Below are positions 31,022-31,270 of a stretch of DNA of 64,000 nt, one piece after another; positions within the stretch are counted from its first letter, which is position 1; each line of letters opens with the position of its first letter. The position numbers and the translations under genes are program-made. Source of the DNA: Mycolicibacterium frederiksbergense (GTDB lineage: Bacteria; Actinomycetota; Actinomycetes; Mycobacteriales; Mycobacteriaceae); the NCBI RefSeq assembly GCF_012223425.1, contig NZ_CP038798.1, forward strand, positions 186,001-250,000, in the 5' to 3' direction. The notes under the pieces were generated by a model, which was not told the origin of the DNA, ran no database searches, and saw only the letters and a program-made list of their open reading frames with translations.

Positions 31022-31270
31022 CTACCTGCCAGGCGTGGCGAAGACGAACAGGGCCATGAAGGCGATGTTGATGAAGTAGATCGCTTCAACCAGCCCGACG
31101 GTGATCAAAAACGGTGTGAACAAACGTGATTGCGCCTCGGGTTGGCGGGCAACTCCCGCGATGAACTGGGAGCCGGCCATCCCGTCCCCGATGCCCGCAC
31201 CGATGGCACCACCGGCCAAAATGCTGGCCCCGGCCAAGAGGGCGTCGCCCACGATGGGGTCAGTCGGCAT
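31022..31270 (-). CDS. atpE: ATP synthase F0 subunit c, isolated copy with Ala63Ile
   Basis: An 82-residue protein that matches mycobacterial AtpE along its whole length. Helix 1 has AGGAIGAGIGDGMAG, the polar loop is ARQPEAQSRLFTPF, and helix 2 is ITVGLVEAIYFINIAFMALF. The proton-carrying Glu (Glu61 in M. tuberculosis numbering, residue 62 here) is kept. So are Asp28, Leu59 and Ile66 of the bedaquiline site, but Ala63 is Ile (codon ATC). No other atp gene is near, whereas atpE normally lies within the atp operon, so this is probably a second, mobile copy. The start ATG has a perfect AGGAGG seven bases upstream. It could join or replace the chromosomal c-ring. Confidence 0.92.
   Translation of the reverse strand: MPTDPIVGDALLAGASILAGGAIGAGIGDGMAGSQFIAGVARQPEAQSRLFTPFLITVGLVEAIYFINIAFMALFVFATPGR

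Follow-up and report, generated by a model that had tools for sequence, protein, structure and literature searches.

A 64,000-nucleotide stretch of Mycolicibacterium frederiksbergense DNA (the window; bases 186001-250000 of contig C3, which is 268,343 bases long, in a four-contig assembly of 6.71 Mb) contains a standalone gene for ATP synthase subunit c, atpE, in addition to the copy in the atp operon of the genome. Comparison with related loci indicates that this locus is likely a truncated remnant, with atpE intact, of a cassette in which genes for a TetR-family regulator, a glycosyltransferase (GT) and subunit c lie together. We consider the evidence evenly poised on whether the gene is the survivor of a TetR-GT-subunit c resistance operon whose subunit c builds a rotor ring that is gripped poorly by a c-ring-binding antibiotic. 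The features of the locus are listed below.

31022..31270, minus strand: standalone subunit c gene, 82 amino acids, with Ile63 and the proton-carrying Glu61 (sequence and family profiles).
31277..31282, minus strand: Shine-Dalgarno sequence AGGAGG of this atpE, sharing bases with the GT-tail stop codon (31281-31283).
31271..31367, minus strand: 3' remnant of a GT gene, about 29 codons plus the junction to atpE; a weak tblastn match reaches 31418 (nucleotide alignment and tblastn).
31356..31817, plus strand: IclR-family gene lacking its N-terminal part, with an IclR_C match from profile position 25, abutting the GT remnant (Pfam).

An earlier note on this DNA, made from the sequence alone, had described a complete 82-residue subunit c with a perfect ribosome binding site and Ile in place of Ala63. 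Each of these points was confirmed. The product exceeded the cut-offs of Pfam ATP-synt_C (PF00137; 41 bits vs 24) and NCBIfam PRK05880 (133 bits vs 120), identifying it by profile as an F-type ATP synthase subunit c. Asp28, Leu59, Glu61 and Ile66 are retained as the note had said, position 63 (M. tuberculosis numbering) is Ile, and both the polar loop Arg41-Gln42-Pro43 and the proton-carrying Glu61 of helix 2 are present. The open reading frame is real, but its 82 codons are complete only on the minus strand; the plus strand over the same interval is interrupted by a stop codon. The note had also called the gene isolated, which was right only in part. No other ATP-synthase gene was found within 2.6 kb by tblastn with atpB, atpF, atpH-type and atpA proteins, and intact cassette partners are missing, but a GT remnant adjoins the gene.

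The cassette was recognized in related genomes (handles G, C and L stand for genomes, contigs and loci). The fetched loci gave 118 atpE places, of which 69 lie in atp operons and 49 are standalone. Standalone copies came mostly from the best-scoring genomes (386 of 396 genomes matched) and from 19 genomes picked by TetR or GT, and thus do not measure prevalence; the operon copies are those that were fetched. Many loci extend only 1.5 kb past the match, such that a TetR gene, or an atpE gene on the far side of a GT, could be missed, and counts and Fisher tests treat related genomes as separate. A GT of the same family adjoined 38 of the 49 standalone places vs none of the 69 operon places (Fisher p 2e-21, uncorrected for relatedness). 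Among these 38 places the GT was fragmentary in two (G168, G263) and atpE was defective in two (G144, G168). TetR and GT were both present in 26 of 34 wide standalone loci. In G030 (95% identical) and G167 (94%), atpE is the third of three same-strand genes, following TetR and a 414-residue GT; the TetR and GT genes overlap by 4 bases, and 11 bases separate GT from atpE. TetR-GT-atpE was the usual order in wide loci; TetR-atpE-GT and TetR-GT-atpE-GT were also seen, as was a divergent arrangement in G838. Some genomes hold more than one set: two sets in G028, a set and an orphan atpE in G278, and a set and a GT-less pair in G167.

Eleven standalone places had no adjoining GT. TetR was kept in two of them (G167:C25, G243), and tblastn found neither partner in the other nine, two of which, the window and G278:C444, retain a GT tail. 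A TetR-GT pair or a GT was present elsewhere in the genomes of G269, G243, G847, G850 and G882; no close GT or TetR-GT pair was found elsewhere in G013, G412 or G413. Carriers of the cassette include M. peregrinum and Mycobacteroides sp. CBMA 271 and, judging by protein names alone, M. chelonae, M. franklinii, M. brisbanense, M. helvum and Gordonia soli. The sets extend to further genera of this family, Tsukamurella-type genomes among them, and GTs 74-84% identical are named in M. avium subsp. hominissuis, M. vicinigordonae and M. triplex. Among the papers listed by full-text literature searches, which most subscription journals lie outside, there was no description of a TetR-GT-atpE set or of a standalone mycobacterial atpE. 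Eight genomes (G188, G391, G284, G417, G086, G253, G123, G143) have, besides their normal gene, a common short subunit-c fragment (residues 39-65, 74% identity), apparently a decayed copy.

In the window, only atpE and the GT tail are left of this arrangement. When the relatives' GT was searched against the window's own genome, it matched three distant GTs on contig C1 and one piece directly upstream of atpE (C3:217284-217412, residues 368-414, 53% identity, E 4e-4). Nucleotide alignment showed homology over 31271-31367, one frame of which reads as the GT tail. Most of the GT, the TetR gene and the dyad that precedes TetR in relatives are absent from the locus, and no TetR match was obtained at 1e-30 anywhere in the genome. 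The truncated IclR-family gene against the GT remnant marks the break point at about 31356-31370. The G278:C444 copy, 98% identical to that of the window, also lacks TetR and GT, has a shorter GT tail and lies next to another neighbour, placing its origin in a different break. Within the window's clade dN/dS for atpE is 0.03-0.06; the protein is under strong constraint.

The genome contains exactly two PF00137 matches, the window gene and C1:4252507. The latter lies inside the atp operon on C1 (6.09 Mb), encodes Asp28, Ala63 and Tyr64 and is 71% identical to the window copy. The window gene is thus a second, diverged copy beside a normal native one, the arrangement expected of target replacement. 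The earlier note had proposed a genome search for a second atpE and a tree of AtpE sequences, and had held that its idea would fail if this were the only atpE. The atp operon has its own subunit c, with Ala63, and in the tree the window copy falls in a separate group. A recent duplicate of the host's own atpE was ruled out by the 71% identity and the separate tree group, and a second atp operon was likewise rejected for the window and the other standalone places.

The earlier note was also right in describing a diverged second subunit c whose drug-site residue is altered, and the contig that bears it is probably mobile. C3 is likely a plasmid, since within the window it encodes a ParA-like ATPase, transposases and two phage-type integrases. 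Among plasmid records the window flank had zero matches, the cassette was not found, and the sole match to subunit c was in a Tsukamurella atp operon. The GT matched four plasmid records at 1e-40; of the three fetched, one had a TetR-GT pair and none had atpE. Carriage by phages was unsupported, as subunit c was unmatched in phage records and the GT had no confirmed close relative in viral contigs. A gene with a Mu-transposase C-terminal domain and the two adjoining phage-type integrases occupy 59122-63823.

Residues were counted and trees built without G168:C31 and G144:C28, in which atpE is defective, leaving 47 standalone and 69 operon copies. Residues 63 and 64 differ from Ala63-Tyr64 in 42 of the 47 standalone copies vs one of the 69 operon copies. 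Thr63-Phe64 was found in 23 standalone copies, Phe64 with Ala63 in nine, Ile63 in four and other combinations in six, and positions 54, 58 and 68 were also changed repeatedly. Ring assembly and proton carriage by the standalone copies look possible because neither set varies at Arg41, Gln42 or Glu61. Asn28, found in some standalone copies, also occurs in 12 operon copies, 11 of them from one genus (g26, Tsukamurella-type).

The regulator of the relatives is a TetR-family protein (TetR_N, PF00440; 47 bits vs a cut-off of 24). Alignment of 28 loci in three groups revealed a conserved block that coincides with the TetR start or lies shortly before it. In Mycobacteroides-type and M. peregrinum-type loci the block contains GACC/GGTC dyads, including one that spans the start codon, with perfect dyads in 20 of 20 loci. 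A GATC version of the dyad is found in clade A/C loci, perfect in four of eight. Of 14 further family-level loci, 13 show a perfect GATC or GACC dyad and one, L234, has none. In seven of seven tested genomes the 18-base dyad core had a single occurrence, immediately before the TetR gene (reversed control, 0); it was absent from G000. The GATC version was found at the cassette in G030, G167 and G187, one near-match lay elsewhere in G028, and G000 and G278 had none. This distribution fits one dedicated TetR site per cassette, at which the regulator would bind.

The GT of the relatives exceeded the cut-offs of Pfam EryCIII-like_C, UDPGT and Glyco_transf_28. Its AlphaFold2 model (mean pLDDT 82.8) best matched yeast sterol 3-beta-glucosyltransferase (5gl5, TM 0.84), followed by the glycopeptide GTs GtfA, GtfB and GtfD, with CalG1 and OleD lower; the modelled fold identifies it as a GT-B enzyme. 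Antibiotic-inactivating GT-B enzymes named in PMC13214531 include Rgt (rifamycin), GimA, Mgt and OleD (macrolides) and Ngt-1.

A quick atpE tree, which rests on 83 columns and has little resolution, set the Mycobacterium operon copies apart by one branch (support 89) and 41 standalone copies by another (83). Because six Tsukamurella-type copies were split off, two separate origins of the standalone copies were considered. However, a tree uniting all 47 scored 25 log units better than the quick tree (AU p 0.89), and a single origin is not rejected by these sequences. In a GT tree of 89 rows, 39 have TetR and atpE, 25 have TetR without atpE and 25 have neither. The state of having atpE beside the GT changes eight times, at least seven of these changes being forced by well-supported branches. 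From this pattern atpE seems to have been a partner of the TetR-GT pair repeatedly.

These observations suggest the following scheme. In the intact operon TetR is predicted to occupy the dyads at its own start and to leave on binding the drug. The GT would attach a sugar to a natural product that binds the c-ring, and the variant subunit would take the place of drug-sensitive subunits in newly built rings. The drug would be a natural c-ring inhibitor, against which both layers would protect the cell; in the window strain only the subunit-c layer remains, without the dyad. A single glycosylatable c-ring drug would explain why unrelated genes travel under one TetR. The macrolides oligomycin and venturicidin bind near the c-subunit carboxylate and overlap the bedaquiline site (PMC8249445). 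More tentatively, and with somewhat less confidence than we have in the origin of the window gene, we propose that mycobacteria and their kin share a mobile, drug-sensing rotor-swap cassette that would glycosylate a c-ring natural product and rebuild the ring with a drug-proof subunit. The orphans in the window and at G278:C444, where the GT was cut at different points, would then have kept the rotor subunit alone as a minimal determinant.

Several results weigh against a resistance operon. The best NCBIfam model for the GT, the rifamycin-inactivating Rgt, scored only 112 bits vs a cut-off of 800, the macrolide GT cut-offs were also unmet (MGT, 49 of 260 bits; macro_glyco_Mgt, 34 of 700), and the nearest solved relative is a sterol glucosyltransferase. 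Changes in the standalone copies showed no significant overall clustering at pocket positions (p 0.076, with a pocket list taken partly from PMC6541270), and five Tsukamurella-type copies are unaltered at 63 and 64. Some copies are disrupted or survive only as fragments, hence the set is dispensable. Pairs of TetR and GT that lack atpE are frequent (25 of the 89 GT rows), and the GT may have a function independent of subunit c.

The structural match to the sterol enzyme and the pairs that lack atpE would also suit an operon for the cell's own chemistry, in which a sterol-like or cell-envelope lipid would be glycosylated by the GT and sensed by TetR, and the variant subunit would suit the ring to a changed membrane or an altered pH. 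We think this unlikely, as the patchy presence of the cassette (eight changes on the GT tree), the decayed copies and the changes at 63 and 64 fit an accessory anti-drug trait better. It is similarly improbable that the window copy, whatever the operon does elsewhere, is a relic that is silent and drifting on the contig. The loss of TetR, the dyad and most of the GT is what a relic would show, and no sigma-70-like promoter was found in 30800-31700 (0 found, 0.1 expected; mycobacterial promoter types are poorly covered). However, the frame and ribosome binding site are intact, the private changes of this atpE comprise seven synonymous and one non-synonymous, although most of the divergence may predate the break, and the other orphan, G278:C444, whose break differs, is intact too. 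The least probable explanation is producer self-immunity against an own c-ring inhibitor. Polyketide-synthase-like and carrier-protein-like open reading frames do lie near the cassette in Mycobacteroides sp. CBMA 271 (L036:1803-6556), the former about 1.5 kb from it, but this cluster was not found in three or more of the compared loci, and no such cluster is seen around 24-40 kb of the window.

The earlier note had proposed that the gene is a determinant of bedaquiline tolerance. Residue 63 is relevant to this drug: naturally resistant species have Met63 (PMC5817190), and PMC6541270 lists A63P, A63V and A63M as resistance-associated. As the purpose of the gene, however, bedaquiline is unsupported, because the usual family partners are a TetR and a GT and the drug is synthetic, whereas the family spans several genera; a glycosylatable natural c-ring inhibitor fits better. 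The published MICs for carrier species are 0.015 ug/ml for M. peregrinum, 0.062 ug/ml for M. chelonae and 0.062 ug/ml for M. franklinii (PMC5817190), although the tested strains may differ from those sequenced. The MBC of >2 ug/ml in M. peregrinum and M. chelonae is common to M. smegmatis and M. phlei and does not single out carriers (PMC5817190). We therefore regard bedaquiline tolerance as a very improbable function; the Ile63 copy, if expressed, may still cross-protect.

The paralogue may also have entered work on this drug. In a published bedaquiline predictor, variants that occur in susceptible species, A45S, G58S, A63T and L68V among them, serve as non-resistant examples (PMC6541270). 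These residues occur in none of the 69 operon copies and in 9, 28, 24 and 18, respectively, of the 47 standalone copies. As they are confined to standalone copies, the labels given there probably derive, for some species, from the paralogue mistaken for atpE. An atpE pulled by similarity from such genomes may be the paralogue.

Target-replacement resistance genes such as mecA, dfrA and mupA supply an insensitive second copy of an essential target beside the native gene. The cassette likewise brings a second target copy, which would be insensitive, but its target would be one subunit of a rotary ring, encoded in one operon with a modifying enzyme. The family copies resemble mycobacterial AtpE (PDB 9vks, 8j0s, 4v1f, 7jg5) in length, Glu61, polar-loop Arg41-Gln42 and a glycine-rich first helix; unlike it, they lie outside the atp operon and differ at 63 or 64 and, in many cases, at 54, 58 and 68. 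Antibiotic-inactivating GT-B enzymes share their fold, and Rgt as best NCBIfam model, with the cassette GT, which differs in its low score to that model, in its closeness to the yeast sterol enzyme and in being paired with a drug-target copy. In mycobacteria, ATP synthase is a current target of drugs. Should the proposal hold, environmental mycobacteria already possess an inducible defence against c-ring inhibitors, and the cassette TetR and GT would point to the natural compound that selected the cassette.

Other features were observed in the window. A 534-residue open reading frame converging on atpE (29227-30831, plus strand) had zero Pfam or NCBIfam matches. A catabolic-looking cluster at 32864-49934 includes LysR, SDR, ferredoxin-reductase-like, Rieske/LigXa-type oxygenase and P450 genes, together with a LigK-type 4-carboxy-4-hydroxy-2-oxoadipate aldolase that exceeds its cut-off. 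A 30-base unit is present in three near-perfect tandem copies at 24011-24119, and 25997-26397 is an inverted repeat with 21-base arms that are 90% complementary and 359 bases apart. Two small open reading frames at 21865-22412 resemble, by eye, a YefM-YoeB toxin-antitoxin pair.
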